A DNA stretch of 64,000 nt from Lacinutrix sp. 5H-3-7-4 (GCF_000211855.2 NC_015638.1:248001-312000); one strand, 5' to 3'. Shown: positions 4,864 to 23,577, counted from the stretch's first letter. Numbers and translations: made by a program. The notes: generated by a model from the letters alone, not told the origin.

Positions 4864-7800
4864 ATGAAAAAGGTATTTAATTTCCTACTATTATGTTGTT
4901 GTTTTGCTGTTTACTCGCAACAAGAAGCCTCTAACTGGTATTTTGGTGATAATGCCGGAATTAATTTTGATTTAAATGGAAATGTTACAACTTTAGATAA
5001 CGGACAATTAGCTACTGAAGAAGGTTGTACAAGTATTTCAGACAATGCAGGTAATTTATTATTTTATACCAATGGCGAGAATGTTTACGATAGTTCTCAT
5101 AATTTAATGCCTAATGGTTTTGGTTTAACAGGTAACCAGTCTAGCACACAGTCTGCTATAATTATACCTAAACCTGAAGATGCAGACATTTATTATATAA
5201 TTACCCAAGACACAGAGTTTCAAGGTGGTTTAGATTCTGGATTTCGTTACTCTGTTGTAGATATAACTTTAAATGGCGGATTAGGAGATGTAACATTAAA
5301 AAATCAGTTTTTATTACATAAAGCTTCAGAGAAATTAAGTGCTGTTTTAAAAGATTGCCAATCACAAAGTATTTGGGTAGTGACATTTGCAGATAGTGAT
5401 GCGTTAACAAACTCAAATGCAGTTGATAATAATAACAATACATTTTATGCCTTTGAAGTAAATGCTGTTACAGGAATTAATACAACGCCTATAGTATCGT
5501 CTTTTCCTTTTTCAATTTCAGAAAGAAGAGGTTACTTAAAATTCTCTCCAGACGGTACAAAATTAGCTGCGGCAAATATTACCGAAGGCTTATACCTTTA
5601 CGATTTTGATACCGCTACGGGTATAGTTAGTAATCCTACATTTATTAATATAAATTTTATTTCGCAAGCTGGAGCACAAAACCCTTATGGTATTGAGTTT
5701 TCTCCAGATAACACAAAACTTTATGTCTCGACTTTTGTCAATGTAGCTCCAGAAGATTTTAATAATGCTAATGCTCAATATGGCGCTTTATTACAATATA
5801 ATTTACAAGCAACAGATATTAGTGCAAGCGAAGTACTTATTGACGAAAGACAAACTTATCGTGGAGGTTTGCAATTAGGACCTAACGGAAAAATATACCG
5901 TGCCATGAGCAATACTTACGATCAAGGCACACCTTTTTTATCTGTTATAAATAATCCAAATGCACTAGGTTTAGCTTGTAATTATCAACATAATGCAGTG
6001 GCTTTAACTGCTAATTCTAGACAAGGTTTACCTCCATTTATTTCTTCTTTTTTTACTGAAACTATAGATATTATTAAAGATGGAAACAGTACAACATTTT
6101 TAAAACTATGCGATGGTGATTTTTACTCTTTAATGGGAGACGATATACCTGGTGCTACCTATACTTGGACTTTAGATGGCAACCTTTTACCAGAAACAGA
6201 TTTTGATTTAGATATTACAACATCTGGTTTTTATGAAGTATTAATTGAACTTAACGATGGTAATTGTGGCGCTTTAAAAGGTGAAGCCAATGTTACGTAC
6301 TTCTCGTATCCAGTCGCTAATCAACCTTCAAATATTAGAGTTTGTGATAACAATAATGATAATAAATTTCTTTTTGATTTATCGCAACAAACAAGCGATA
6401 TCCTTGATACTCAAGACCCATTAACAACAGATGTTATTTATTTTGAGAGTTTAAGTGATGCTCAAGCTGGGATTAATAGTATTAGTGGTTTGTATGAAAA
6501 TACTTCAAACCCACAAACAATATACGCACGAGTACAACCTACAGGCAATGCAAATTGTTTTGATATTACATCTTTTAATATTCAAGTATTTAATACTCCG
6601 CAAATAAATAATACTAACGACTTTATTGTATGTGATAACGATAATAATCCTATGGATGGATTTTTAACTATAGATTTAACTACTTTTAATGCAGATATTA
6701 TTGGGAATCAAAATCCAGCAATTTATACTATTTCATACTATAACAGTTTTGAAGATGCCGAAAATGAACAAAATCAATTACCTAATAACTATACCAATCA
6801 AACAGCTTTTAATGAGACTATTCATATTAGAATTGAAAACAATAATGAAACATCATGTTATTCTATAGGAAATTTTCAATTAATAATAAACCCTATACCA
6901 GAAGCTAACAATACCACACTATACCAATGTGACGATATTAATGCTGTAGACGGTTTTACAACCTTTAACCTAACTCAAGTTATAGATAATATTACACCTA
7001 CTACAACAAATAGGAGCATTAGGTTTTTTAATTCACAAAACGATGCCGAAAACAATACCAATGAAATAGATGGCAACGCATATAACAATATTACTAATCC
7101 TGAAACCATTTACGTTAGAGTAACTAATACTATTACCGGCTGTATTAATACAAGCGAACTAATAATTGAAACTAGCGATACACAAATTAGTAATTATTAC
7201 GCACCAGAACTTTGTGATGTTTTAAACTCTGAAGATGGTTTAGATACCTTTAATCTAGATGAGTTTTCTGTTCAAATATTAAACGCATTACCAACAGGTT
7301 TAAATATTAATTATTTTGAAACTTATAATGATGCACTTTTAGAACAAAATCCACTAGCATCACCGTACCAAAATACTACGCCATATTCTCAAACTATTTA
7401 TGTTAGAGTTGAAAACAATAATGCCTGTTATGGAATAAATGAAGTATACTTAAAAATTAATCCTCTACCAGAATTAGAGACCGAAAACGAAAGAGTTTTA
7501 TATTGCTTAAATACATTTCCAGAAACACTAACTTTAAATAGTAGTTTAGCTGATGAATTTTCGGGAAACTATAGTTTTAACTGGTCTACAGGTGAAACAA
7601 CCGAATCTATTCAAGTTAATACTGTTGGTACTTTTACTGTAACCGTTACAAATATTGCATCTGGTTGTAGTAAAACAAAAAATATAATTGTAGAACCTTC
7701 TAATACTGCAACAATAGAAGATGTTTTAGTAATTGATGGCAGTTTAAATAATAATCAAATTACAATATTATTTAGTGGTGAAGGCGAATACGAATTTGCA

Positions 7801-8199
7801 TTAACTAATCAAGATGGAGAATCTACACTTTTTCAAGAAAGTAATATATTTAATAATATTTCTCCTGGAATTTATACAGTAACCATTAGAGATACCAAAA
7901 ATAATTGTGGTAGCGTTACAGAGTTGGTATCTGTAATAGGTTTCCCTCTATACTTTACACCTAATAATGATACAATAAATGACACTTGGCAAGTTTACGG
8001 TGTTTCAAGTCAATTTCAACGTAATTCTTTAATTCATATTTTCGATCGCTACGGAAAACTTCTTACTACTTTAGATCCTGCTGGTAAAGGTTGGGATGGT
8101 ACTTACAATGGAAAAATTATGCCCGCAAGTGACTATTGGTTTCATGTTACCTTAGAAGATGGCCGTATTTACAAAAATCACTTTACATTAAAACGCTAA
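4864..8199 (+). CDS. Secreted T9SS type B sorting-domain protein with beta-propeller-like N-terminus and 4 repeat modules
   Basis: A protein of 1111 residues with a signal peptide (about residues 1-18, ending VYSQ). Residues about 20-400 look like a WD40/YncE-like propeller (repeated S-x-D-G-T-K-L and S-P-D-N-T-K-L-Y-V motifs). Four copies of a C-D-x-x-x-D-G-F...F-D-L / P-Q-T-I-Y-V-R-V module follow (about residues 490-860), then an Ig-like stretch. The last 85 residues are a gliding-motility-associated C-terminal domain of the SprB type (YFTPNNDTINDTW ... FDRYGKLL ... GWDGTYNG ... HFTLKR). By family it crosses the outer membrane through the type IX system and stays on the surface or is released. 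First of five such genes in a row; the role is presumably adhesion or gliding. Confidence 0.88.
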   Translation: MKKVFNFLLLCCCFAVYSQQEASNWYFGDNAGINFDLNGNVTTLDNGQLATEEGCTSISDNAGNLLFYTNGENVYDSSHNLMPNGFGLTGNQSSTQSAIIIPKPEDADIYYIITQDTEFQGGLDSGFRYSVVDITLNGGLGDVTLKNQFLLHKASEKLSAVLKDCQSQSIWVVTFADSDALTNSNAVDNNNNTFYAFEVNAVTGINTTPIVSSFPFSISERRGYLKFSPDGTKLAAANITEGLYLYDFDTATGIVSNPTFININFISQAGAQNPYGIEFSPDNTKLYVSTFVNVAPEDFNNANAQYGALLQYNLQATDISASEVLIDERQTYRGGLQLGPNGKIYRAMSNTYDQGTPFLSVINNPNALGLACNYQHNAVALTANSRQGLPPFISSFFTETIDIIKDGNSTTFLKLCDGDFYSLMGDDIPGATYTWTLDGNLLPETDFDLDITTSGFYEVLIELNDGNCGALKGEANVTYFSYPVANQPSNIRVCDNNNDNKFLFDLSQQTSDILDTQDPLTTDVIYFESLSDAQAGINSISGLYENTSNPQTIYARVQPTGNANCFDITSFNIQVFNTPQINNTNDFIVCDNDNNPMDGFLTIDLTTFNADIIGNQNPAIYTISYYNSFEDAENEQNQLPNNYTNQTAFNETIHIRIENNNETSCYSIGNFQLIINPIPEANNTTLYQCDDINAVDGFTTFNLTQVIDNITPTTTNRSIRFFNSQNDAENNTNEIDGNAYNNITNPETIYVRVTNTITGCINTSELIIETSDTQISNYYAPELCDVLNSEDGLDTFNLDEFSVQILNALPTGLNINYFETYNDALLEQNPLASPYQNTTPYSQTIYVRVENNNACYGINEVYLKINPLPELETENERVLYCLNTFPETLTLNSSLADEFSGNYSFNWSTGETTESIQVNTVGTFTVTVTNIASGCSKTKNIIVEPSNTATIEDVLVIDGSLNNNQITILFSGEGEYEFALTNQDGESTLFQESNIFNNISPGIYTVTIRDTKNNCGSVTELVSVIGFPLYFTPNNDTINDTWQVYGVSSQFQRNSLIHIFDRYGKLLTTLDPAGKGWDGTYNGKIMPASDYWFHVTLEDGRIYKNHFTLKR

Positions 8200-8316
8200 T
8201 AGACTTTATCTTTTTTTTAGTAGGTGTTATTTACATAGAGTTGTTTTAAATTTAGTATTCCACTTTTTATAGCTATTCTAATATTTAACAATCTTATGAA
8301 AACTAATTATATAGTT

Positions 8317-8324
8317 TATATTTG
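8317..8324 (+). promoter_or_regulatory. -7 box for the 1972-residue T9SS type B gene
   Basis: Exact TAnnTTTG match (TATATTTG), 26 nt before the ATG at 8350. It is the same octamer as upstream of the preceding paralogue, so the two genes are probably transcribed separately. Confidence 0.55.
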
Positions 8325-8349
8325 CTCAATCAATCGCATTTAACCCATT

Positions 8350-11300
8350 ATGAAAAGGATCCTACTAAGTACATTATTTTTTATTTTCTCGTTTATTTCT
8401 TTCGCTCAACAACCTAATGACTGTGCTAATGCTCTTACGGTTTGTGGAGATTCAGATGTTGTTTTAGATGTTAACGGACCTGGAAACAATAGTAACGAAT
8501 TTCCTAACTCTTGCCAAAGTAATGAAAACAATAGCTTATGGCTAGAAGTAACTGTAACAACAACAGGTACTTTAGCATTTACATTAACTCCTAATAGCAA
8601 TAATATTACTGAGGACTACGATTTCTTTATTTTTGGACCAAACACAACATGTGGTAATTTAGGACCAACGATAAGATGTTCTACAACAAATCCTCAATCA
8701 TCTGGTCAAGCAAATAATTTAACAGGGTTAAGTACTTCTGAAACAGACAACTTTGAAGGTCCTGGTGCTGCTGGAAATAGTTTTGTAAGTGCTATAAATG
8801 CTAATGCAGGAGATACATATTTTATTGTTATAGATAGACCTATTGGTAATAGTCCTTTTAGTTTAACTTGGACTGGTACCGCACAATTTGCCAATGCTCC
8901 AACCAGCGAAACAGATCCTTCTGGAAATGCTTTAGATTTAACTGAATGTGATTCGGTAGCGCCATTTAATGATGGTCAAACACCTTTTAATTTAGAAGAA
9001 AACACGCCTCTAATTATAGGATCGCAACCAGATGTAGCTGTGGCATACTATGAATCTGAAAGTAATGCTAATATCGCTTCAAACCCATTAACAAGCCCAT
9101 ATATTAGTAACAGTAACGGACAAACTATTTATGCTACAATTACTAATACATCTACAGGTTGTTTTACTATTCAAGAATTTCAATTATTAATAAATAACAA
9201 TACTACTGCTGCACAGCCTTCAAACCTAGAACTTTGCGACGATTCTTCAAACGATGGCGTAGAAATATTTGATTTAACAACCGAGGAAGCAGTTATTTTA
9301 AACGGTCAAGATCCAGCCAATTACACGGTAAGTTATTACGAGCAACCAGGTGATGTAGCAACAAGTACCAATGCAATAGCAACACCAGGAGCTTACCCAA
9401 ATATGTCAAGTCCACAAACCATATATGTTCGTGTAGACGATAACTCTAATCCAGCATGTTTTGGCGAAACAAGTTTTACAATAACGGTTAATCCAGAAGA
9501 CGATTCGACCTTTACCATGCAACCAACCTGTGATGGAGCTACTGTAGATACAGTAGCCACACCAGGCGGCACCTATGTATTAAATCCAGATCCTGCAGAT
9601 GGCTCAGTAATAGATGCAACAACAGGAACAATAACCGACGGATTATCAGGCGCGAGTTACACTGTAGATTATACAACAAATGGCACCTGTCCATCAACAA
9701 GTTCATTTACAGTAACAGTAGATATAACCAATGATGCTTCATTTACTATGAATGCTACCTGTGATGGTGGAATAGTAACAAGCGAAGCCACACCAGGCGG
9801 TACCTATGCATTTAATCCAATACCAACAGATGCTGCTAGTATAGACCCAGTAACAGGAACAGTAACAGGAGCCACATCTGCCACTGTTTATATGGTAGAA
9901 TATAGCTTAGGAGGCGCTTGTCCGTCATCAACAATAGAAACGCTAACCGTTTTAACTACCGATGATGCTAGTGTAACCTACACACCAACCTGTGATGGTG
10001 GCGTTGTAGATTCAGAAGCCACACCAGGCGGAAGCTATGCATTTAATACTGTGCCAACAGATGGTGCGATTTTAGATACCACTACAGGCGCTATAACCGG
10101 AGGCACACCAGGAGCAAGTTACACCGTAGATTATACAACAAATGGTAGCTGTCCAGCAACAAGTACAACAACTGTAACAGCCAACCCACTACCAACAGTA
10201 GTAACACCAACACCTTTAGAAGTATGTGATGATGCGACACCAGATGGAATAACAGCAATAGATTTAACATTAAAAAATCAAGAGATATCAGGCGGAAATC
10301 CAGCCTATACAGTAAGCTATTATTTTACACCATTAGACGCAATAAATGCGACCAATCCATTAGCCATACCTTATACCAACCAAACACCAAATATGCAAAC
10401 GGTATATGTTCGAGTAGAAGATGCAAACACGGGATGTTTTGATACAACGAGTTTAGAATTAGTAGTTGAGCAAGCACCAGTAGCCTTTACACCAGCAGCT
10501 TTAGAATACTGTGATCCAGACAGTGATGGGTTTGGAGAGTTTATGCTATCAGATACCGAAGCAGAAATCACAGCAGGCGCACCAGGACTAACAGTCACTT
10601 ACCATGAAACGATGGCCGATGCTATGAATAATGTTAATGCCTTATCAAGTCCTTACAATAACATTGTAGCAAACATGCAAACAATTTATGTACGAGTAGA
10701 AAGCTCTACCATAGCAACAGACTGTGCGAGTTTTGTAGAACTTGTATTAATAGTCAACCCAACACCACAAATAACCGATCCAACAGCGTTAGAAGTTTGT
10801 GATGATAATGCCGATGGTTTTGCTACATTTAATTTACCAAGTAAAGATGCCGAGATTCTAAATTTATTAGATACCGATCCAACAAACGATTTAGATCCAA
10901 CGCAATACACAGTAACATATTATATAACACCAGGCGATGCTATGGCAGGTACAAACCCAATAGCAACACCAAACGCTTATGTTAATACTAGTAACCCGCA
11001 AATAGTACATGTACGAGTAGAAGACACAGCTAATGATTGTTTTACAAACACGACATTAGAGCTTATAGTTAACCCATTACCAGTACTTGTGCAACCAGAT
11101 CCTTTAGCCTTGTGTGATGTTAATAATCCAGGAGATGAAGTAGAAGCCTTCACTTTAGAAGATGCAAATGCACAAATACTAAACGGTCAAACGGGTATAA
11201 CACTAACATACTTTGATACACAAGCAGGAGCCGATACTAATGATGCAGCCGCACAAATATTCAGTCCATATACCAATACTGTAAACCCACAAACAGTATA

Positions 11301-14268
11301 TGTACGAGCAGAAAATGATAACACAGGCTGTGTAAGCACGATCACATTAGACCTTCGTGTCAATCCATTACCATCACCAGTTGCAATGCCAGCAGCTATT
11401 GAAGAATGTGATGATGATAATGATGGTTTTGCAAGTTTCGATTTAGACGCCCAAAGTGCTATAATCACCAATGGAGAGCCAGATATCACTATTAGTTACT
11501 ATGAGACGCAAGATGATGCTATGAATATGGTAAACCCATTAGTGAGTCCATACAATAATATTGTAGCCAATATACAAACCATTTATGTTTTAGCAGAAAA
11601 TGATAACACAGGCTGTTTTACAATAGTCGAAATGCCATTAATTGTACAACCAGCACCAGTAGTACCATTAGATATCGAGGACTATATTATTTGTGATGAC
11701 GATGATGATGGATTCAATCAATTTGATTTTGATGCAGTAATTACACCACAAATCTTTACAGCAGGACAAACAGCGGCAGATTTCACACTAACGTATCACA
11801 CAACACAAGCTAATGCCGATTCAGGAAACAACCCAATTATTAATACCAGTAACTATACAAATAACTCTAACCCACAAACCATTTACATTCGATTAGAGAG
11901 TAATACTAATGGATGTGTTACTACAGGAGAATTTATAATACGTGTAGAGTTTCCACCAGTATTAGATCCAAACTACGATAATGAGTTAGCACAATGTGAT
12001 GATTTAGACGCTAACTATATGGAAGCCAATGACGGTTTCACTTCTTTTGATTTAACAGTAGAAGATTCAGAAATAGTAAATGGCAACAACAGTTGGGTTG
12101 TAACCTATTATGAAACAATGGCAGATGCTCAAGGCGATGTAAATGCAATAGCAGACCCAACCAACTATACCAATACCATGAATGGTCCACAAACACTTTA
12201 TGTACGTGTGACCGATAACGATACAGGGTGTTTTTCATTTACAACAGTGACATTACGAGTACTTCCAAACCCATCACCAACACCAGATCCAGAAGATTTG
12301 ATAGTGTGTGATGATACCAACGCAGGTGATTTAATAGAAGTTTTCGATTTAACACAAAATGAAATAGCAATTATTAATGGAGAATTAAATGTAACGGCAA
12401 GTTACTACACCAGTCAAGACGATGCCATTACAGGAAACAATGCAATAGCAGACCCAACAATGCATACTAATGAAGATCCAAACAATCCAGGAACAGGTAT
12501 AACACCACAAACCATTTATGTACGTCTAACCAATGGCGATGATAACACAGGATTAAACGGTACAGGATGTTACAGTTTAGTAAGTTTTGATGTTATTGTA
12601 AACCCATTACCAACAGTAACACCAGTAGACGATTATATTATTTGTGAGCTGTTTAATGATGGTATGGCCGATTTTGATTTAGACGGCACGATGACAGCAG
12701 CAATATTAAACGGTCAAGACCCGTCAATATTCACTGTAAGTTATCATGAAACACAGGCAGAAGCAGATGCAGCCATCAATGGATTAAACAGTCCGTATAC
12801 CAATATTACCAATCCACAAACCATATATGTAAACATCACCAATACTATTACAGGCTGTGATGTAGCGACACTAAACTTTAATATAGAAGTACAAGAAGCA
12901 GCACAAGCCAATCCAGATGGAGTAGCAATAGTATATGAGCAATGTGATGACAATATGGAGTTTGATGGCGACCCAAGTAACGATACAGTACAGTTTAATT
13001 TAGAAACACAAAACCCATTTGTTTTAGATGGACAAGACGCTAATAACTACACTGTAAGTTACTATGAAAATCAAGCAGATGCAGATGCAGGTACAAACCC
13101 ATTACCATTTTTATACGAAAACACTAGTAATCCACAAGTAATTATTGTTCGTGTAGATAATGATACCATGATAGTAACACCAATAAGTTTAGACCTAAGC
13201 AGTTTAACAACAGGATTAGATGTTGATAGTGATGGAAATATAGATACAATAGATACCAATGGCGATGGCGTGTTCGATATAGTAGATATCAATGGCGATG
13301 GCATAGCAGAAGGATTTGATAGTGATGCCGATGGTATTATAGATTATATAGATTTAGATGGCGATGGCAATGGTGATTTAGTAGACCTAAATAACGATGG
13401 CGTTGTAGATAATGGTCAAGACAGTTCAATATGTTATGAAACCGCTGAAGTTACTCTACAAGTCAACCCGTTACCAGCCTTTGATTTAGACGATAGTTAC
13501 CTACTATGTATCAATACTAATGGTACAGAAGTAGTAAACTCACCACTAGTAGATACAGGTTTAGATGCTTCATTATATAGTTTTGAATGGAGCTATGAAG
13601 GCAATGTTATGGCAGGAGAAACAGGACCATCAATCATGCCAACCGAAGGCGGAAACTATAGTGTAATAGTAACAGATACCTCTACAAGTGCAAATACAAT
13701 GTGTATGAGTAGTGATAGTACTGTGGTAGATGTAAGCGAACCACCAGTAATTAGTTACGAGCTATTAACAGCAGCCTTTGCAGACCAACACGATGTGCAA
13801 GTAACGGCAAGCGGAAGCACAGCAACTTCAATAGCCGTGTATGAATTTAGTTTAAACGGTGGTGCTTGGCAATTAGGAACAGCAAATGCAGATGGAAGTT
13901 ACAGTCACACCTTTACCAACATACCAGCAGGCGGTATAGTTGTAACCGCAAGAGATGTTAATGGTTGTGGAGAAGTAAGTGAAGAAATCATGGTACTAGA
14001 CTACCCAGTTTACTTTACACCAAATGGTGATGGTTATAACGAAACATGGAATATATATAGCATCTCAAATTACCCAGATGCTAAGATTTACATCTTTGAT
14101 CGTTTTGGAAAACTATTAAAACAAATAAGTCCATTAGGCGATGGTTGGAACGGAACTTACAATGGTAACCCAATGCCAACAAGTGACTACTGGTTTACAG
14201 TAGAATATACAGACACAGCAACAAATACTAAAAAGCACTTTAGAGCACACTTTACATTAAAGCGTTAA
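8350..14268 (+). CDS. Giant secreted T9SS type B protein with 12 + 3 repeat modules and a calcium-binding repeat
   Basis: A protein of 1972 residues. A signal peptide (1-19, ending SFAQ) precedes an N-terminal adhesin-like domain beginning QPNDCANALTVCGD (about 20-190). The middle has twelve copies of the CDD...DG...FDL / PQTIYVRV...TGCF module and, after the second copy, three copies of a different module built on T-C-D-G-G/A...A-T-P-G-G-T/S-Y. Six exact 11-residue D-x-D/N-x-D-G repeats (residues 1623-1688), resembling thrombospondin type 3 or dockerin calcium loops, sit inside the last module. An Ig-like segment and the type B sorting domain (YFTPNGDGYNETW ... HFTLKR) end the protein. Base composition is less AT-rich than in its neighbours from about 9500 on. 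Likely surface adhesin or filament; cargo-specific helper genes are absent here. Confidence 0.88.
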   Translation: MKRILLSTLFFIFSFISFAQQPNDCANALTVCGDSDVVLDVNGPGNNSNEFPNSCQSNENNSLWLEVTVTTTGTLAFTLTPNSNNITEDYDFFIFGPNTTCGNLGPTIRCSTTNPQSSGQANNLTGLSTSETDNFEGPGAAGNSFVSAINANAGDTYFIVIDRPIGNSPFSLTWTGTAQFANAPTSETDPSGNALDLTECDSVAPFNDGQTPFNLEENTPLIIGSQPDVAVAYYESESNANIASNPLTSPYISNSNGQTIYATITNTSTGCFTIQEFQLLINNNTTAAQPSNLELCDDSSNDGVEIFDLTTEEAVILNGQDPANYTVSYYEQPGDVATSTNAIATPGAYPNMSSPQTIYVRVDDNSNPACFGETSFTITVNPEDDSTFTMQPTCDGATVDTVATPGGTYVLNPDPADGSVIDATTGTITDGLSGASYTVDYTTNGTCPSTSSFTVTVDITNDASFTMNATCDGGIVTSEATPGGTYAFNPIPTDAASIDPVTGTVTGATSATVYMVEYSLGGACPSSTIETLTVLTTDDASVTYTPTCDGGVVDSEATPGGSYAFNTVPTDGAILDTTTGAITGGTPGASYTVDYTTNGSCPATSTTTVTANPLPTVVTPTPLEVCDDATPDGITAIDLTLKNQEISGGNPAYTVSYYFTPLDAINATNPLAIPYTNQTPNMQTVYVRVEDANTGCFDTTSLELVVEQAPVAFTPAALEYCDPDSDGFGEFMLSDTEAEITAGAPGLTVTYHETMADAMNNVNALSSPYNNIVANMQTIYVRVESSTIATDCASFVELVLIVNPTPQITDPTALEVCDDNADGFATFNLPSKDAEILNLLDTDPTNDLDPTQYTVTYYITPGDAMAGTNPIATPNAYVNTSNPQIVHVRVEDTANDCFTNTTLELIVNPLPVLVQPDPLALCDVNNPGDEVEAFTLEDANAQILNGQTGITLTYFDTQAGADTNDAAAQIFSPYTNTVNPQTVYVRAENDNTGCVSTITLDLRVNPLPSPVAMPAAIEECDDDNDGFASFDLDAQSAIITNGEPDITISYYETQDDAMNMVNPLVSPYNNIVANIQTIYVLAENDNTGCFTIVEMPLIVQPAPVVPLDIEDYIICDDDDDGFNQFDFDAVITPQIFTAGQTAADFTLTYHTTQANADSGNNPIINTSNYTNNSNPQTIYIRLESNTNGCVTTGEFIIRVEFPPVLDPNYDNELAQCDDLDANYMEANDGFTSFDLTVEDSEIVNGNNSWVVTYYETMADAQGDVNAIADPTNYTNTMNGPQTLYVRVTDNDTGCFSFTTVTLRVLPNPSPTPDPEDLIVCDDTNAGDLIEVFDLTQNEIAIINGELNVTASYYTSQDDAITGNNAIADPTMHTNEDPNNPGTGITPQTIYVRLTNGDDNTGLNGTGCYSLVSFDVIVNPLPTVTPVDDYIICELFNDGMADFDLDGTMTAAILNGQDPSIFTVSYHETQAEADAAINGLNSPYTNITNPQTIYVNITNTITGCDVATLNFNIEVQEAAQANPDGVAIVYEQCDDNMEFDGDPSNDTVQFNLETQNPFVLDGQDANNYTVSYYENQADADAGTNPLPFLYENTSNPQVIIVRVDNDTMIVTPISLDLSSLTTGLDVDSDGNIDTIDTNGDGVFDIVDINGDGIAEGFDSDADGIIDYIDLDGDGNGDLVDLNNDGVVDNGQDSSICYETAEVTLQVNPLPAFDLDDSYLLCINTNGTEVVNSPLVDTGLDASLYSFEWSYEGNVMAGETGPSIMPTEGGNYSVIVTDTSTSANTMCMSSDSTVVDVSEPPVISYELLTAAFADQHDVQVTASGSTATSIAVYEFSLNGGAWQLGTANADGSYSHTFTNIPAGGIVVTARDVNGCGEVSEEIMVLDYPVYFTPNGDGYNETWNIYSISNYPDAKIYIFDRFGKLLKQISPLGDGWNGTYNGNPMPTSDYWFTVEYTDTATNTKKHFRAHFTLKR
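13216..13413 (+). repeat. Six tandem 33-bp repeats coding DxDxDG calcium-loop motifs
   Basis: Six consecutive 33-nt units encode 11-residue repeats such as IDTNGDGVFDI and IDLDGDGNGDL. The Asp/Asn spacing matches EF-hand-like loops of thrombospondin type 3 and dockerin repeats, so calcium binding is likely. They interrupt the twelfth CDD module of the 1972-residue protein between its VRVDND strand and the terminal CYETAEVTLQVNPLP strand. Confidence 0.85.
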
Positions 14269-14304
14269 AACTAAAGTAAAACACATAGTAAATAGTAAAC
14301 ACAA

Positions 14305-14337
14305 AAAAATCTGAACGATTCGTTCAGGTTTTTTTAT
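14305..14337 (+). terminator. Rho-independent terminator
   Basis: Stem AATCTGAACG / CGTTCAGGTT (one G-T wobble) with a 3-nt loop, followed by a run of seven T. It ends the 1972-residue gene. Confidence 0.88.
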
Positions 14338-14389
14338 TTAATTCATCCTCACTTATTATTTGTATTTTTAAGTTCCTTAAGCTTAAAAA

Positions 14390-16228
14390 ATGAAAAAAAC
14401 ATGTTCTATTTTATTTATAATATTTATACTTCCAGTAATCGTTTGGTGTCAAGATATTTCAATATTTCAACAATTTAATGGAAGGTATGATTATTTAGCT
14501 ATTGGCAATACATTAAATCCCGCAGAAAATAATTTAGTACAATCTTTTTGCGAGATTCTACCATCATCTCAAGCTACACTTAATATTAACAGTTCTTCTA
14601 CTGTAGTTGCAGCATATTTATATTGGGCCGGCTCTGGCTTAGGAGATACTGAGGTCTCTTTAAATGGAACCGCAATTAATGCTGCAGACACTTATAATAC
14701 AATATACACAGATACTACATTAGGAGATTTAAATTACTTTTCCTGTTATGCAGATGTCACGAATCAAATAATTAACGAAGGCAATACTGTTTACGAATTA
14801 ACAAACCTTGATATTTCTGAAACTTTAGCTAATAATCCTGGGCATTGCGCCAGGCGAACAAATTTTGCAGGTTGGAGTATTTATGTAATATATGAAAACC
14901 CTACACTTCCTCTTAATCAAGTCAATTTATTTCAAGGATTAGAAATTATAAATCGTAATGTAACAGAAAAAACAATTTTTCTTGATAATGTAAATGTACT
15001 CGATAATGATAATGCTAAAATAGGTTTTTTGGCTTGGGAAGGCGACAATGCTTTAAACTATGGAGAAACCTTATCTATAAATGGAAATATAATTTCTAAT
15101 CCACCACTAAATTTAGCAGATAATGCCTTCAACGGGACTAATACTTTCACTAATGACACAGGTTTTTATAATGGAGATTTAGATGTATATAGTATAGAAA
15201 ACAATATAAATATTGGAGACACACAAGTTGAAATAAAACTAACTACAGGAGATTTTAATGAATTTGGAACTTTTCAAGCCGATTTAATTTTAATTAATAA
15301 CATTATAACCGTACTTAATAGCCAATTACCAGATGCGACAATAGACGTTATAGGAAATGTGACTAATTGCGGAGATAGAAATATAACTTTAGATTACATT
15401 GTAAACAATACAAACAGTACAGATCCCTTACCTGCAGGAACACCAATAGCATTTTATGTAAATAACCAACTAATTGAACAAACAATAACAAACAATATTA
15501 TAGGAATAAACGAAAATGAAACAGCCACAATAGAAATAAGTATTCCAAGTAATATTCCAAACGATTTTATATTAGAAGTCTATGTTGATGACGATGGCTT
15601 AGGAAACAGTACAGTAATAGAGATTTTAGAAAACAACAATAGCACAAACTTAGCTGTATCATTAATTCCATTACCTGAAACAATAGAATTACCACCATTA
15701 AACAATTGTAATGAAGGTTATAATACCGCAACTTATGATTTAGAATTAATTTTAATTGAAATAAACTCTAATAACTATTTTAATTTTTTATTTTATGAAA
15801 CTACCGAAGACCTTCAGAATAATACTAACCAAATTATAAACATAAATAATTACCAATCACAACAAACACCACAAACACTATATATTAAAGCAGAAACAAC
15901 AAACTGTTTTGATATTTTCAAATTCAATTTAATAACAGAAAATTGTCCGCCATTTATTCCGCAAGGCTTTTCACCTAATAATGATGGTTATAACGATTAT
16001 TTTAATATTCAAGGACTCTATACTATTTTCCAGGAACATGAGTTATTAATTTATAGCCGTTATGGCAATCTTATATTTATTGGTGACGACTCAAAAAAAT
16101 GGTATGGTTTTTCTAATCACGGTATTAACGACGGAAAACGCGTACCAACAGGTACATATTTTTATGTTTTAAAACTTAATTATAAAAATTCTTCTCCAAA
16201 GGTTGGTTGGGTTTATTTAAATAGATAA
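14390..16228 (+). CDS. Secreted T9SS type B protein with DUF3344-like N-terminus
   Basis: A protein of 612 residues with a signal peptide (about 1-20, ending WCQ). The N-terminal half carries SSSTVVAAYLYWAGSG and YFSCYADVT motifs, which I associate with DUF3344-like surface domains. A CARDB-like segment follows (about residues 320-420), then one degenerate copy of the cluster module (CNEGYNTATYDL ... TPQTLYIKAETTNCF). The C-terminal domain begins FSPNNDGYNDYFNIQG and ends GWVYLNR with VPTGTYFYVLKL. It is a more distant branch of the gliding-motility C-terminal family than the other four, which end HF-x-L-x-R. Expected location: cell surface. Confidence 0.8.
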   Translation: MKKTCSILFIIFILPVIVWCQDISIFQQFNGRYDYLAIGNTLNPAENNLVQSFCEILPSSQATLNINSSSTVVAAYLYWAGSGLGDTEVSLNGTAINAADTYNTIYTDTTLGDLNYFSCYADVTNQIINEGNTVYELTNLDISETLANNPGHCARRTNFAGWSIYVIYENPTLPLNQVNLFQGLEIINRNVTEKTIFLDNVNVLDNDNAKIGFLAWEGDNALNYGETLSINGNIISNPPLNLADNAFNGTNTFTNDTGFYNGDLDVYSIENNINIGDTQVEIKLTTGDFNEFGTFQADLILINNIITVLNSQLPDATIDVIGNVTNCGDRNITLDYIVNNTNSTDPLPAGTPIAFYVNNQLIEQTITNNIIGINENETATIEISIPSNIPNDFILEVYVDDDGLGNSTVIEILENNNSTNLAVSLIPLPETIELPPLNNCNEGYNTATYDLELILIEINSNNYFNFLFYETTEDLQNNTNQIININNYQSQQTPQTLYIKAETTNCFDIFKFNLITENCPPFIPQGFSPNNDGYNDYFNIQGLYTIFQEHELLIYSRYGNLIFIGDDSKKWYGFSNHGINDGKRVPTGTYFYVLKLNYKNSSPKVGWVYLNR

Positions 16229-16250
16229 AAAAATCATGTATTTCATCGAT

Positions 16251-16285
16251 TAATTTTGCGTTTAAACATAAAAACGTTAATTTTG
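16251..16285 (+). promoter_or_regulatory. Two tandem -7 boxes before the 1606-residue gene
   Basis: Exact TAATTTTG boxes lie at 16251-16258 and 16278-16285, 86 and 59 nt before the ATG at 16344. Either or both could serve the gene. Confidence 0.45.
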
Positions 16286-16343
16286 AGCACTTTAACGAAC
16301 AGATTGAAGTTTAAAAAACTCTGTTTTCATAATTCATTACTAG

Positions 16344-19300
16344 ATGGAAAAGTCCTCAAAAAAAACAGTAAATCATGTTACATTAGTAATGTTATTTATA
16401 AATTTACTTACCCTAAATGCGCAACAAATTACTGTAGACAGTAATCAATCTGCACAAGAATTAATTGAAAATAATTTGGTGCAAGGTTGTGTACAAGTTT
16501 CAAATATATCTTCCCCAATTAATGGAAGTATAAACGGCTTCTCTAGTTTTGGTTATTTTGAAAGAGCTAATTCTAATTTTCCTTTTGAAAATGGTATTGT
16601 ACTATCTTCAGGTAATGTTAACTCTGCAGGAAACATGCAAAATACAAGTGCATTAAATGAAGGTAATGATAACTGGCAATCTGATCCTGATCTAGAAACT
16701 GCTTTAGGTATTAATAATACTTTAAATGCTACAAGTATTCAGTTTAGTTTTACCTCATCATCAAGTACTATACAATTTAATTATATTTTAGCTTCCGAAG
16801 AGTATTTTGCAGATTACCCATGTAATTATTCAGATGGTTTTGCATTTTTAATTAGAGAAACAGGAAGTGGAAACCCATACCAAAATATAGCTATTGTACC
16901 AGGAACTTCGATACCAGTAAATACTAGTACCATACACGATGAAATTGTAGGTTTTTGTCCTGCCGAAAACGAAAGTTATTTTGAAGGCTATAATATTGGA
17001 GACACCAATTTTAACGGAAGAACAACCGTTATGTCTGCATCTGCTAATATTACACCTAATACGCAATACGATATAAAATTAATAATAGCCGATCAAACCG
17101 ATAGAAATTTTGACTCTGCTGTATTTATAGAAGGTAATAGTTTTACAGATAGTGTAGATTTAGGTCCTGATTTTTCTACATGTGATGCTTCTGCAATATT
17201 AAATGCTAATACTAATAATCCTCAAGCAGTTTATAATTGGTATCAAGACAATGTATTAATTAGCGGTGAAAACTCAAGTAGTATAAATGTAAACACATCG
17301 GCTACTTATACTGTAGAAATAACTGTACCTTTAAATAATACTACATGTACTTTTGATGATACTATAAGTGTTACTTTAAACTCTATACAAACCATAGAGT
17401 CGCTTAGTGATTTTGAATTATGCGATGATATAAGTGGCGATGGGACAGAAAATTTTGATTTAACCCAAAAAAACCCAGAATTACTGGCATTATTACCAAA
17501 CTCTAATTACAATATAAGTTATCATGACTCGCAACAAAATGCTATTGATAATACTAATGCCTTTACAAATATTAACAACACTGCAAATCCTCAAACAATT
17601 TATATAAGAGCCGAAGACACCTCTAGTGGTTGTGTATATATGTCGCAAGTAACTTTAGTAGTAAATACAATACCACAAATTACAGATCCTCAAGATGCCG
17701 AAATTTGCAGTAATAGCGATGGTAGTATTGCTCTAACTAGTTTTAATAATGAAATTACAAACGGCGATACTAACTATAGTGTCACTTACCATTATTCTCA
17801 AACAGATGCAGACTCTGGCTCTAACCCAATAGACTCTCCTTATACACCAACAAATACTACAGAGCAACTATTTATTAGAGTAGTAAACGTAAATACAGGA
17901 TGTCTTGCTTTTACAGATATTATTATAAATACTTATAATGCTCCAAACATAAACAATTCTACACAGCAAATTAACGCTTGTGAACAAGACGATGATGGTT
18001 TTGAAACTTTTGATTTAGAAAGTGTTTTATCAGATGTATTACAAGGCGAAACAGGTGTAACAACAACTTTTCACACCTCTATAGAAGATGCACAAAGCGG
18101 TGATAACCCTATAAATAATCCAACAGATTATCAAAATACCATACCAGAGTTTCAAGTTGTTTATATAAGAATTACTAATAACAATAATTCATGTTTTGAA
18201 ATTGTACCTATAGAATTACATACAAACATTCTAGAAACAGGAACAAATATTCGTGATTTTGCTTCGTGTGATGTCGCTCCAGATGATAACATTGGAGAAT
18301 TTGATTTAGCAAATATAACTGTGGTTATAGCAAATGGACTTCCAGATATAACTATAACTTATTATGAAACAGAAGACGATTTAACAAATAATACTAATGC
18401 TATAGATACTTCAAACTTATACAGTGTAGAAAATGAGCAAACACTTTATATTTTAATTGAAGATGCAGACTGTTCAAATACATCAGAGATTTTATTATAC
18501 ATTTTACCATCGGTTACTATTTTAAACGATGCTCCTGTAACCTATTGTGATACAGATCCAGATGGCTTCACCTCTATTCAATTGTCTTCATTTAACGAAT
18601 TAATGGGTCAAGGTATTCCAAATGCGGCCGTTACTTATTATGAAACTCAAACCGATGCTGAAAATTACCAAAATCAACTTCCAGAATTTTATAATAATAC
18701 AACTAACCCAATTACAGTTTTTGTTAGAGTAATTGGTGAAGGTGGTTGTCACGACATAAAACCTCTCGAGATTCAAGTACTACCAGCACCTAATACTAAC
18801 TTACCTACAGATTTTTTAATTTGTGATGATGACCAAGATGGAGCTTCTGTTATAGATTTAACATCAAAAAATAATGAGATTACAAACGATTCTAACGTTA
18901 CTATAACTTATTATGAATCTGAAAATGATGCTAATTCATCTTCAAACGAAATTTTAAATACTACAAATTACAGTACCCAAACTACAACTGTATTTGCTAA
19001 AGTAGAAAACAATACATCTGGATGTTATGCTATTGTTCCTGTTTCAGTTATTATAAATACATTACCTGTATTTACATCTATACCAGACTTTATTATTTGT
19101 GAAACAGACGGTAATCAAACTGCAGATTTTATTTTCTCTAATCATGATGCTGCTGTTTTAAATGGACAAACAGGAAAACAAGTATTGTATTTTGAAACGC
19201 AAAATGATGCTGCAAATAGAACAAATGTTATAGATAAAAATGCAGTTTACAACAATACCTCACAAACACAAGTAATGCATGTTAGAGTAGAAAATGTAAC

Positions 19301-21164
19301 AGATGCGTCATGCTTTGGCATTTCTACTTTCAATATTGAAGTTGGATCAGAACCAATATATACTGCGCCTCAAGATGTTTTTGTTTGTGATGACATTTCA
19401 AATGATGGTTTTGAAACTTTCGATTTAAACGAAATTACAAACACCATAACTCAAGACAGTCCAGAAACGCTAAGCGTATCATATTACTTATCTCAAAATG
19501 ATGCCAATAACGAAGTAAATGCAATACCACAAAACTTTACTACAACCGAAAATCCTCAAGCCATATTTATAGTTGTAGATAATGGTACTTATTGTAAAGG
19601 GTTAAACAGTTTTGAGTTTAATGTTATACAAGTTCCACAAGTAAATTTAGCATCAGATTTAGTTATCTGTGACTCTAATACAGATGGCTTTGCTACTTTC
19701 GATTTAACAGTTGCAGAAATTGAAGTTTTAGCAGTAAGACAAGACAATATTTCTATTGCTTACTACGAAAACGAAACAGATTTAGAGAACAATACCAACC
19801 CAATTTCAACGCCAGAAAATTATACAAACACAGCTAATCCACAAACTGTATATATAGAAATTACTAATACTGTTTCAAATTGTGAAGTTTCGGTTCCTAT
19901 AGAGTTAATAGTTAATCTACCACCAGAAATAAACAATATTGGTACTTTTAATATCTGCGAAACGACTAATAATAGTTTTAATTTAACCCAAACCATAGAA
20001 CCGTTAATAGGCAATCAAGATGCCTTAATTAATTTTTATATATCTCAAAATGAGGCAGAACAAAACCAAAACCCATTAAATACAGATTATACGTATTCAA
20101 CAAATAGCGATATTATATACGCCAGAGCAGAATTTGCTAATAATGGTTGTTATAATATTATGCCTTTTACATTAAATGTTTATACTAATCCAGTTGCTAA
20201 TACCTTAAGTGATTTAGAAGCTTGTGATGATGATTTTGACAGTTTTCTATTTTTTGATATCTCACAACAAACACCAATTGTACTTGGCTCTCAAAATCCA
20301 AATGATTTTTCAGTAACTTATTTTACTACAGAAAATGATGCTATTAACAATACTAATACAATACAAGATTTAAATTATGAAGCTGAAGATGGAGAAGAAA
20401 TTTTTGTAAAAGTTGAAAACAATACAACCAGTTGCTATGATATAACTAGTTTTTCAATTTATGTAAAACGCAAACCTATAGTAGAAATAACAGATCAGGT
20501 ATTATGTTTAGATAATTTACCGCTTACTGTAACTGCAGAAACATTTGTTGATACAGACACTTACCTTTGGTCTACGGGAGAAACAGATGCTACTATAGAT
20601 ATAAGTACAATAGGAGACTATAGCGTTACTGTAACATCACAATACGGTTGCAGCACGACCTCAAATTTTTCTGTAATAGAATCTGAAGCTGCAGTAATAG
20701 AATTTACAGAAAGTATAGACTTTGGTAACCCAAATAATTTAACAGTAACTGTTTCTGGAATTGGTGAATATCTATACCAATTTGACGATGAACAACCTCA
20801 AGAATCTAACTTTTTTAGTAATGTGCCTATTGGGCCGCATACCATTACAGTTATAGATTTAAATGGCTGTAATAGCACCACCAAAGAAATTGTAATTATA
20901 GATGCACCTCAATATTTCACACCAAATGGAGATAACATTAACGAAGAGTGGCATATTACCGGTGTAGAATTACTTGAAGGTACAGTAGTTAATATTTACA
21001 GTAGATACGGTAAAATTTTAAGCACATTAAACCACAATTCTAGAGGATGGAATGGTAATTATAATGGTAACCCAATGCCTGCTACAGATTATTGGTTTGT
21101 TGCAGATGTTAAAAAAGGAGCAATAGCTTTTCAAGTTAAAGGTCATTTTGCCTTAAAGCGTTAA
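16344..21164 (+). CDS. Giant secreted T9SS type B protein with choice-of-anchor L domain and 11 repeat modules
   Basis: A protein of 1606 residues. The N-terminus (about 1-27) is a signal peptide with a charged start and hydrophobic core ending LNAQQ. Residues about 30-275 form a choice-of-anchor L domain (ENGIVLSSGNVNSAG, NWQSDPDLE, FNYILASEEY, ADQTDRNFDSAVFIE). After an Ig-like segment come eleven copies of the C-D/E...D-G-F...F-D-L / NPQTIYVRV...GC module, then CLDNLPLTVTAE Ig-like sequence and the SprB-type sorting domain (YFTPNGDNINEEW ... HFALKR). It is a tandem paralogue of the next gene, which has the same ends but only two modules. Probably a surface adhesin. Confidence 0.88.
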   Translation: MEKSSKKTVNHVTLVMLFINLLTLNAQQITVDSNQSAQELIENNLVQGCVQVSNISSPINGSINGFSSFGYFERANSNFPFENGIVLSSGNVNSAGNMQNTSALNEGNDNWQSDPDLETALGINNTLNATSIQFSFTSSSSTIQFNYILASEEYFADYPCNYSDGFAFLIRETGSGNPYQNIAIVPGTSIPVNTSTIHDEIVGFCPAENESYFEGYNIGDTNFNGRTTVMSASANITPNTQYDIKLIIADQTDRNFDSAVFIEGNSFTDSVDLGPDFSTCDASAILNANTNNPQAVYNWYQDNVLISGENSSSINVNTSATYTVEITVPLNNTTCTFDDTISVTLNSIQTIESLSDFELCDDISGDGTENFDLTQKNPELLALLPNSNYNISYHDSQQNAIDNTNAFTNINNTANPQTIYIRAEDTSSGCVYMSQVTLVVNTIPQITDPQDAEICSNSDGSIALTSFNNEITNGDTNYSVTYHYSQTDADSGSNPIDSPYTPTNTTEQLFIRVVNVNTGCLAFTDIIINTYNAPNINNSTQQINACEQDDDGFETFDLESVLSDVLQGETGVTTTFHTSIEDAQSGDNPINNPTDYQNTIPEFQVVYIRITNNNNSCFEIVPIELHTNILETGTNIRDFASCDVAPDDNIGEFDLANITVVIANGLPDITITYYETEDDLTNNTNAIDTSNLYSVENEQTLYILIEDADCSNTSEILLYILPSVTILNDAPVTYCDTDPDGFTSIQLSSFNELMGQGIPNAAVTYYETQTDAENYQNQLPEFYNNTTNPITVFVRVIGEGGCHDIKPLEIQVLPAPNTNLPTDFLICDDDQDGASVIDLTSKNNEITNDSNVTITYYESENDANSSSNEILNTTNYSTQTTTVFAKVENNTSGCYAIVPVSVIINTLPVFTSIPDFIICETDGNQTADFIFSNHDAAVLNGQTGKQVLYFETQNDAANRTNVIDKNAVYNNTSQTQVMHVRVENVTDASCFGISTFNIEVGSEPIYTAPQDVFVCDDISNDGFETFDLNEITNTITQDSPETLSVSYYLSQNDANNEVNAIPQNFTTTENPQAIFIVVDNGTYCKGLNSFEFNVIQVPQVNLASDLVICDSNTDGFATFDLTVAEIEVLAVRQDNISIAYYENETDLENNTNPISTPENYTNTANPQTVYIEITNTVSNCEVSVPIELIVNLPPEINNIGTFNICETTNNSFNLTQTIEPLIGNQDALINFYISQNEAEQNQNPLNTDYTYSTNSDIIYARAEFANNGCYNIMPFTLNVYTNPVANTLSDLEACDDDFDSFLFFDISQQTPIVLGSQNPNDFSVTYFTTENDAINNTNTIQDLNYEAEDGEEIFVKVENNTTSCYDITSFSIYVKRKPIVEITDQVLCLDNLPLTVTAETFVDTDTYLWSTGETDATIDISTIGDYSVTVTSQYGCSTTSNFSVIESEAAVIEFTESIDFGNPNNLTVTVSGIGEYLYQFDDEQPQESNFFSNVPIGPHTITVIDLNGCNSTTKEIVIIDAPQYFTPNGDNINEEWHITGVELLEGTVVNIYSRYGKILSTLNHNSRGWNGNYNGNPMPATDYWFVADVKKGAIAFQVKGHFALKR

Positions 21165-21212
21165 GCATAGCACTTTAGCATAACTTTTAGATAATTTTTT
21201 TTTAGAGTTACT

Positions 21213-21220
21213 TATCTTTG
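21213..21220 (+). promoter_or_regulatory. -7 box for the 779-residue T9SS gene
   Basis: Exact TAnnTTTG match (TATCTTTG) 18 nt before the ATG at 21238. It supports that ATG rather than the in-frame TTG at 21229, which would lie at or just after the expected transcription start. Confidence 0.55.
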
Positions 21221-21237
21221 CAAAATAATTGCGATTG

Positions 21238-23577
21238 ATGAAAAATTCCCTTTTTATAATTCTATTTTTTTATGTCTTGTTTGCAAGTTCACAAAACATA
21301 ACTGTAGATAGCCAAACCTATACACCTCAACAACTTGTAGAGGATATTTTAATAGATAGTGATTGTATTTCTAACGTACAAGTTACAAATACAGTTGGTG
21401 GCGATTTTAATAATACAGACCAAAGTTATGGCTATTTTGATGCTACAGGCACAACATTTCCTTTTCAATCTGGAATTGTATTAAGCACAGGTAGATTAAA
21501 TAACGTACCTGGACCTAATAATTCTTTAAGTGATGACGATGCTCCAAACTGGCAAGGCGATCAAGATTTAGAAATAGCTTTACAAGAATCTAATACATTA
21601 AATGCTACTATAATAGAATTTGATTTCACATCTGTAGCAAACCAAATTAGTTTCCGTTATATTTTTGCTTCAGAAGAATACCAAGAAGGAAATTCTAGTA
21701 CTTGCCAATATTCAGATTTATTTGGTTTTTTAATTAAACCTGCTAGTGCTCCTACTTCAGATTATGAAAACATTGCCTTAGTTCCTAATACACAAACTCC
21801 TGTTAAAGTAACTACTGTACATCCAGAAATTCCAGGAAGTTGTGATGCTATTAACGAAATATATTTCGATACATTTAATGATAATGTCTCTCCTATAAAT
21901 TTTAATGGTCAAACAGCTGTACTTACTGCAACCGCACAAACAGTTCCTAACCAAAGTTACCATGTAAAGCTAGTAATTGCAGATGAGCAAAATTACCGTT
22001 ATGATTCTGCTGTATTTTTAGAAGCAGGAAGTTTTGAACTAAGTACAAATTTAGGTACAGACAGACTTTTAGCAACAAATAATCCGCTTTGTGGTAACGA
22101 AACATTAGAATTAAACGCAACTCAAGTAAATGCAACCAGTTACCAATGGTTTCAAGATGGCAATATATTATTAACAGAAACAAACCCTACTTATACAATA
22201 ACAGAATCTGGAACGTATAGTGTAGAAGTTAGCGTAAATAATACTTGCGTGTCTTTTGGTGAAATTGTTGCAGAATATGCTACGCCACCAAATGTAGCAA
22301 ACACTACTTTATTTGAGTGTGACTTTAATCAAGATGGCTTTACAACATATAATTTATATAATGCTGCAGATACAGTAACTATGAATGATCCAAATATTGG
22401 AATCACCGATTTTTATCTAAGTATTACCGATGCCGAAATGCAAACTAATGCTATTACAAATGCTACAAGTTTTAATAATACTAGTATAATGCAAACCGTT
22501 TATGCTTCTGTAATAAACCAAAATACAAATTGTACAGCTATAGCTGAAGTTATTTTAGATATTTCAACCAACACAATAACTTTAGAACCTTTTGATACTT
22601 GTGACGATGGAATTGTTGATGGTTTTACCAGTTTCGATTTAGATGAATTAAGGTTACAAATTCAACCTAATGTTCCTGCAAATGCTACCATAACATTTTA
22701 TACAACTATTGAAGATGCTTTTGCTGAAACAAATAGCATTAATGGAAACTTTGAAAACACAATACAAGATACTCAAGATATATTTGTAAAAGTTATTACA
22801 GATACTAACCAGTGTTATGCGGTTTCTAATATTACATTAAATGTACTTTTTACTCCACAGTTACTGCCAGACGAATCGGTTTTATACTGTTTAAACAGCT
22901 TTCCTGAAACCATTACTTTAAATGGAGGTATTACTAACGATTTACCTAACAATCACTATTACCAATGGTTGCTAAATGGTGTAGACACTGTTGTTAACAC
23001 TAGCTTTATAGAAGTTAATGAACTAGGTGTTTATACTGTAATTGTTACAGACCCAAACGGCTGCTCTAACTCAAGAGAAATTACTGTTGTTCCTTCTAGC
23101 GAACCTATTATTGAAGATGTTGTTTTTACAGAATTAACATCAAACAATACAGCAACTGTAATAGTTTCTGGAGATGCTACATATGAATATGCTATAGATG
23201 ATGAATTTGGTTTTTATCAAAACAGTAATACGTTTTCAAATTTAGAACCTGGCTTGCATACTATTTATGTTCGTGATGTAACTAATTGTGGTGAAGCTTC
23301 TATTAGTTTTTCAATTTTAGGCTTCCCTCAATATTTTACACCAAATGGAGATACAGTAAACGAAACCTGGAAACCTATTGGTGTAAACAACGACTTTAAT
23401 ACCAATTTAAATATTTTAATCTTTAATCGTTATGGTAAATTACTAGCTAACGTAAACCCTATTATTGGCTGGAATGGAACTTTTAATGGTTTAAATCTAC
23501 CTAGTGATGACTATTGGTATGTAATAAATCACCCTAATGGTAATCAATACAAAGGCCATTTTGCGCTAGTTCGTTAA
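21238..23577 (+). CDS. Secreted T9SS type B protein with choice-of-anchor L domain and 2 repeat modules
   Basis: A protein of about 779 residues from the ATG; an in-frame TTG lies three codons upstream. The signal peptide (MKNSLFIILFFYVLFASSQ) is followed by a choice-of-anchor L domain (QSGIVLSTGRLNNVPG, NWQGDQDLE, FRYIFASEEYQ, DEQNYRYDSAVFLE). Then come an Ig-like part, two CD...DGF modules, a second Ig-like stretch starting YCLNSFPETITL and a type B sorting domain (YFTPNGDTVNETW ... HFALVR). It is closest to the 1606-residue neighbour in domain order, suggesting tandem duplication followed by module gain or loss. Expected on the cell surface via T9SS. Confidence 0.87.
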   Translation: MKNSLFIILFFYVLFASSQNITVDSQTYTPQQLVEDILIDSDCISNVQVTNTVGGDFNNTDQSYGYFDATGTTFPFQSGIVLSTGRLNNVPGPNNSLSDDDAPNWQGDQDLEIALQESNTLNATIIEFDFTSVANQISFRYIFASEEYQEGNSSTCQYSDLFGFLIKPASAPTSDYENIALVPNTQTPVKVTTVHPEIPGSCDAINEIYFDTFNDNVSPINFNGQTAVLTATAQTVPNQSYHVKLVIADEQNYRYDSAVFLEAGSFELSTNLGTDRLLATNNPLCGNETLELNATQVNATSYQWFQDGNILLTETNPTYTITESGTYSVEVSVNNTCVSFGEIVAEYATPPNVANTTLFECDFNQDGFTTYNLYNAADTVTMNDPNIGITDFYLSITDAEMQTNAITNATSFNNTSIMQTVYASVINQNTNCTAIAEVILDISTNTITLEPFDTCDDGIVDGFTSFDLDELRLQIQPNVPANATITFYTTIEDAFAETNSINGNFENTIQDTQDIFVKVITDTNQCYAVSNITLNVLFTPQLLPDESVLYCLNSFPETITLNGGITNDLPNNHYYQWLLNGVDTVVNTSFIEVNELGVYTVIVTDPNGCSNSREITVVPSSEPIIEDVVFTELTSNNTATVIVSGDATYEYAIDDEFGFYQNSNTFSNLEPGLHTIYVRDVTNCGEASISFSILGFPQYFTPNGDTVNETWKPIGVNNDFNTNLNILIFNRYGKLLANVNPIIGWNGTFNGLNLPSDDYWYVINHPNGNQYKGHFALVR

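Follow-up and report, generated by a model that had tools for sequence, protein, structure and literature searches.

Identical adhesin repeats occur in the Porphyromonas gingivalis genes hagA, rgpA, and kgp (PMC5266723), and in Flavobacterium psychrophilum, a 1.9-Mb inversion lies between 10-kb inverted repeats that carry an adhesin, PorP/SprF, and an outer membrane protein (PMC5808330). In Flavobacterium johnsoniae, the type B signals of the type IX secretion system (T9SS) determine if a protein becomes part of the gliding machinery or stays fixed, and a single shuttle there serves three orphan type B proteins whose C-terminal domains (CTDs) are only >44% identical (PMC12618676). The shuttle protein SprF is known to bind SprB (PMC9143113). 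Here, we analyzed 64,000 nucleotides of Lacinutrix sp. 5H-3-7-4 (NC_015638.1:248001-312000, hereafter the window) from a genome available as a single contig of 3,296,168 bases (G000, contig C1). The window encodes, at positions 4864-23577, five adjacent T9SS type B adhesins built from one repeated module. One of them carries a stalk and secretion tail (stalk-tail) that is found nearly unchanged at two distant loci.

This arrangement resembles that of the P. gingivalis genes, as the proteins are T9SS-secreted, encoded at separate loci, and combine different N-terminal parts with identical repeats that break assemblies. However, the P. gingivalis repeats are Cleaved-adhesin and DUF2436 domains, and the Lacinutrix module has no Pfam match to either. 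Moreover, domain rearrangement among strains was reported for P. gingivalis (PMC5266723), whereas the tails described here cluster by genome across genera. The F. psychrophilum repeats are likewise dispersed near-identical adhesin segments from the same family, and their gene content resembles a second repeated pair described below, but they include the shuttle, while our three-locus stalk-tail excludes it and its heads differ. As with the F. johnsoniae orphans (PMC12618676), several type B adhesins have no neighboring shuttle and probably share one PorP/SprF; the F. johnsoniae CTDs are not homogenized, unlike those of the three loci studied here. The combination of several heads, one separate shuttle, and loci conserved across genera sets the stalk-tail apart from the known cases. 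The modules, the near-identity of the tails, the age of the loci, the clustering of tails by genome, and the single shuttle at one of the loci are directly shown, and we read the tails as evolving in concert. The open-licence PMC literature yielded no account of the module, nor any of T9SS type B adhesins evolving in concert.

Three distant loci with a near-identical stalk-tail

A search of G000 with a single module revealed copies 100% and 99% identical at two distant sites. The homogenized tract (10182-14335, + strand; ~4.15 kb) lies in the second window gene (protein 2; 8350-14268, +; 1972 amino acids (aa), 12 modules), named locus A. It comprises modules 3-12, an immunoglobulin (Ig)-like part, the type B CTD, the stop codon, and an intrinsic terminator (14304-14335, +; CTGAACGATTCGTTCAGG followed by a T run). 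The tract is 99.6-99.8% identical in DNA to locus B (G000:C1:385604-389760(-)) and locus C (G000:C1:1598115-1602271(+)). The upstream limit of the three-locus identity is a module boundary, and downstream the identity ends within or just beyond the terminator. Of 4087 sites, 13 vary among the three copies, none of them between 11775 and 13721. Loci A and C match over 5131 bp starting at 9208, and the segment common to these two only (9208-10181, +; 99.5%) contains module 2 and three repeats of another type.

The heads differ. That of protein 2 (8350-9190, +) is locus-specific, PPC-like by eye, and conserved at locus A in relatives, while locus B encodes CUB and PKD domains with a different repeat, and locus C encodes CUB and PKD domains with, by eye, a choice-of-anchor L part. 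A sequence-only reading of the window had described a modular adhesin family with varied heads, made by tandem duplication. The module is coherent and the heads are varied, as proposed, but the duplication is old, since the window modules have a median identity of only 33% (maximum 56%) and keep their register between species. The recent process is array copying between distant loci, which is not visible from the window alone.

Near-identical repeats raise the question of assembly, as short-read assemblers might have merged similar copies into a single consensus. Draft genomes do break within these arrays and many draft contigs end inside the tract; for that reason, our argument rests on complete genomes. 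Their copies carry private differences (the 13 variable sites of G000, ten of which are synonymous, and 77-132 mismatches in the Lacinutrix genome G002), and identities range from 91 to 99.65% in nine complete genomes. We therefore find an artefact hardly credible. The stalk-tail repeats explain the breaks seen in these genes in draft genomes across the Flavobacteriaceae.

Concerted evolution among Lacinutrix genomes

The same three loci were found in other Lacinutrix genomes by their flanking genes and heads: proteins 1, 3, and 4 of the window and uvrB for locus A, folE and cysS for locus B, and mscS together with a choice-of-anchor L head for locus C. In a tree of the tract start (first 624 bp; 23 loci from 11 genomes), the sequences grouped strictly by genome, with 10 label changes, which is the minimum and was reached in 0 of 200 shuffles. 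In the CUB-head tree, all seven locus C heads, from seven genomes, formed one clade (support 100/99). The flanks and the locus C heads have orthologs in other species, so the loci are older than the species, and the paralogs are nonetheless closer within than between genomes. Tails that cluster by genome would also result if each lineage had recently duplicated them on its own, with no copying between old loci. This birth-and-death process is very unlikely, since several genera have loci B and C occupied at matching positions in their complete genomes, and the locus C heads are orthologous across Lacinutrix; the heads and flanks tested do not cluster by genome as the tails do.

Synonymous divergence (dS) between loci within a genome was 0.004-0.011 in G000 and 0.05-0.10 in G002, and that between the tracts of G000 and G002 at the same loci was 1.09-1.19 (folE, 1.15; locus C head, 0.9). 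The low dS and the identity through the terminator place the homogenization at the DNA level, and copying of DNA is required because selection on proteins cannot yield synonymous and untranslated identity. The ratio of nonsynonymous to synonymous divergence in the tract (dN/dS, 0.06-0.17) indicates that the tails are maintained proteins under purifying selection. It should be noted that such tails are unsuited to orthology assignment or strain typing.

A 1.76-kb array of further modules separates the locus A head from the tract in G001, G002, G005, and G006. The middle of locus A in G000 is instead the locus C version, 99.5% identical to its own locus C and 71-73% to other locus C copies. A locus C segment has thus replaced the middle of locus A in G000, a direct trace of transfer, though not of the mechanism itself. 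This takeover could also be expected if the shared stalk were a recombination platform moving heads between expression sites or varying their display, as in antigenic variation. A draft contig (L054, G005:C31) indeed links the locus C head and flank to the locus A downstream genes via the tract, as a crossover in the tract would. The join stems from a draft, the contigs of which end within these very repeats, and represents either a crossover or an assembly chimera. Furthermore, such a crossover would leave the proteins unchanged because the tract extends to the terminator. The locus C heads and the adhesin genes of loci B and C have kept their positions, and every copy is a complete gene that has a start of its own and is no silent cassette. 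On balance, we judge a head-moving role to be unlikely.

Three other observations were made on these genomes. In G002, the flank below locus B differs, and no evidence was found that a crossover produced it, as proS and the outer membrane gene lie ~35 kb away, with no further tract copy next to them. In the same genome, the adhesin gene of locus C (L050) is in two frames (open reading frames (ORFs) of 1116 and 1296 aa) right at the 5' edge of the tract, reflecting a frameshift or a sequencing error. Finally, G001 contains five tract copies, but this genome is 5% contaminated and has the proS region twice, so it carries no weight alone.

Homogenized tails and a single shuttle across genera

The stalk-tail pattern was found in complete genomes of at least eight genera, Lacinutrix included, with identities of 91-99.65% over 3.4-5.4 kb in the other genera. 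Such matches were seen in G374 (99.65%, 5410 bp), G447 (99.0%, 4084 bp), and G389 (95.5%). Three copies are present in G355 (95.8-99.6%), G384 (97.5-99.6%), and G415 (91-95%), and G263 has two tail pairs (97.2% and 98.1%), that is, two versions, each at two loci. In a protein tree of the tails (last 1150 residues) from complete genomes, grouping by genome was again strict (0 of 200 shuffles), while the CUB heads as a whole were not grouped by genome (8 changes; 38 of 200 shuffles were equally low). In complete genomes from several genera, both locus B (proS/folE/cysS) and locus C (nifU/mscS/SprF) hold such an adhesin gene in a conserved position. The score lists of eight other complete genomes (G419, G445, G450, G369, G377, G440, G141, and G410), for which no DNA comparison was made, contained no equal-scoring dispersed long arrays. 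Stalk-tail homogenization is thus common but not universal.

The copies are sometimes adjacent: in G415, two long-stalk adhesins with different heads lie side by side (L161, G415:C1:800001-819000) and are 93% identical over a 3.5-kb tail, and G384 has a similar neighboring pair (L171, 99.6%). In G389, one tract copy (L169, G389:C1:257001-273000; 95.5%, 4.1 kb) follows a head ORF with a premature stop (1059 aa); from its sequence, this copy is possibly decaying yet still homogenized.

G000 encodes 16 type B CTDs and eight PorP/SprF genes. Seven of the latter immediately follow the adhesin gene to which they belong, and the eighth adjoins locus C. Seven CTDs were counted as orphans, with no neighboring shuttle: those of loci A, B, and C, of proteins 1, 4, and 5 of the window, and of a gene at 1.81 Mb. 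These form one class, 45-54% alike (100% among loci A, B, and C), compared with 18-43% to the other CTDs. Each of eight complete genomes encodes exactly one close relative of the locus C SprF (56-83%), the next best match reaching at most 35%. In complete genomes, this ortholog lies beside the locus C adhesin; locus B is without a shuttle, and none is found beside locus A in G000. We infer that the adhesins considered here share the locus C shuttle.

We consider it probable that concerted evolution by gene conversion maintains a common stalk-tail under several heads, with one shuttle per genome beside locus C. Modules stacked in tandem would form a stiff rod that links the variable head at the N-terminus to the anchor in the outer membrane, and a few long-stalk adhesin genes with different heads occupy conserved distant loci. 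The C-terminal array, the type B signal, and the terminator would be copied repeatedly between these loci by homologous recombination, presumably RecA-type gene conversion, leaving one current stalk-tail version per genome beneath several heads (two in G263). The benefit, if any, would be several heads on a stalk-tail that fits the single PorP/SprF shuttle, and copying may keep all heads matched to that shuttle and perhaps to the gliding track. A family-wide constant-region system, in which selection holds one stalk-plus-secretion-tail per genome and heads are interchangeable on a co-evolving shuttle and gliding track, is proposed only tentatively; if it exists, the stalk-tail would evolve as one block within a lineage.

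Several points weigh against these proposals. Gene conversion, double crossover, and repeated replacement cannot be told apart by identity alone. A shuttle can be shared without identical tails, as the F. johnsoniae orphans do at >44%. Proteins 1, 4, and 5 have an orphan-class CTD without being homogenized, and two arrays of the Flavobacterium genome G095 are only 73.6% alike. Given this divergence, the unhomogenized orphan CTDs, and sharing at >44%, homogenization may be a by-product of long repeats. Long near-identical repeats would then recombine through their length and identity, with no benefit to the cell, and the heads would escape copying because they share no homology. The tract edges lie where homology ends, at the module boundary upstream and the terminator downstream. 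A second, unrelated pair in G000 also behaves alike: L014:7583-11146 and L015:7053-10622 (G000:C1 1067583-1071146 and 1409053-1412622) are 98.96% identical over 3571 bp, which encode an adhesin C-terminus, a PorP/SprF, and a 670-aa OmpA/PorE-like protein, while their middle parts differ. Units of this type are also present in two copies each in G002, G374, and G447. Such neutral homogenization is a real possibility, though we would not call it probable, as chance upkeep only weakly predicts that the pattern, the loci, and one shuttle are kept in at least eight genera, and it leaves unexplained why the shared part always spans the stalk and the secretion signal. The identical tails, different heads, single shuttle, and conserved loci make the question of one shuttle for several adhesins testable.

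The stalk module and the five window proteins

The module is 85-90 residues long. A profile seeded with ten modules and then iterated detected 30 full modules in the five window ORFs (4, 12, 1, 11, and 2; E-values of 1e-17 to 1e-33 each) and none in 1000 shuffled proteins. These numbers are exactly those counted in the sequence-only reading, and the consensus CDDDNDGFETFDL...TVTYYETQEDAENNTNAI...YTNTSNPQTIYVRVENTNTGCFAITELELEVNPAPQV agrees with the motif given there. The two cysteines noted per module are near-invariant, as both are present in 797 of 836 modules drawn from many genomes, and they likely form a disulfide. The suggestion that Asp-rich loops might bind calcium holds in part: the strict DxDxDG spacing is found in 9 of the 30 modules of the window and in 274 of the 836 in the wider set, so binding is possible in only about one-third, and the remaining modules do not fit.

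The sequence-only reading knew no named domain for the module, and the searches agree. Neither Pfam nor NCBIfam contains a model that fits it, whether tested by whole protein or module by module (no match above the curated cut-off; Ig_7 reached an E-value of 0.013 at best on single modules), and a PDB sequence search gave no match. The module was detected in 113 of 150 Flavobacteriaceae genomes, representing 112 of 149 genera, and in 41 of 296 genomes of a phylum-wide sample, mostly Flavobacteriaceae with a few from other families of the class. Both databases therefore lack a domain, still unnamed, that occurs in about three-quarters of Flavobacteriaceae genera, often in dozens of copies per genome.

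AlphaFold2 predicted a compact beta-alpha-beta-alpha-beta-beta fold for the single module, based on the 30 window modules, with a predicted local distance difference test score (pLDDT) of 96.1, strands at 2-5, 30-35, 59-68, and 74-85, and helices at 16-24 and 38-42. A three-module rod, modeled with 97 related triples, gave a pLDDT of 96.8 and a predicted template modeling (TM) score (pTM) of 0.83, so the placement of neighboring modules is predicted with some confidence. The anticipated single coherent beta-sandwich is only partly borne out. The predicted fold is coherent and confident, and its tandem form resembles Ig/cadherin-like rods and the GhpA stalk, but four main strands and two short helices do not make a plain beta-sandwich. 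Foldseek found no confident structural match for the single module. The best match of the triple was GhpA of Aureispira (PDB 9fly and 9flu; E-values of 5e-9 and 9e-8), a giant tandem-domain surface protein from the same phylum, followed by cadherin and Ig rods. GhpA is similar in kind, but homology is not supported, as the TM-score is only 0.33-0.45, identity is 13-18%, and a sequence-profile search gave no match at E ≤ 10. In type B T9SS adhesins of the Flavobacteriaceae, the module is probably a small stalk domain of the disulfide type.

The five window genes are all on the + strand, and all five proteins end in a type B signal (TIGR04131, Bac_Flav_CTERM; each >35 bits, protein 3 being the weakest at 47 bits), as had been read from the sequence. 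Protein 1 (4864-8199; 1111 aa) has four modules (residues 494-872). Protein 3 (14390-16228; 612 aa) has a single degenerate module (residues 445-523) and a CTD of the other type B class. Protein 4 (16344-21164; 1606 aa) and protein 5 (21229-23577; 782 aa) have 11 and two modules, respectively. Among the head types named earlier, choice-of-anchor L was recovered in proteins 4 and 5 (NF038133), but propeller, PPC, and DUF3344 had no Pfam match at E ≤ 1 in the window proteins. The SprB repeat family was absent from the Pfam matches of the five proteins, of individual modules, and of the locus B and C proteins. Hydrophobic N-termini are visible by eye.

In protein 2, an insert of ~70 residues rich in DxDxDG (13216-13425, +; thrombospondin type 3-like by eye) splits the 12th module, whose severed end appears as an extra profile fragment. 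Related modules from other genomes bear a similar insert start. Protein 2 also contains, after module 2 and before module 3 (~9535-10180), three tandem copies of a distinct ~75-residue repeat (CDGG...TPGGTYAFN...YTV-Y--GG-CP) without a Pfam match. The equivalent place at locus B is occupied by another repeat (DDAIFTITGT...VDYNINGG).

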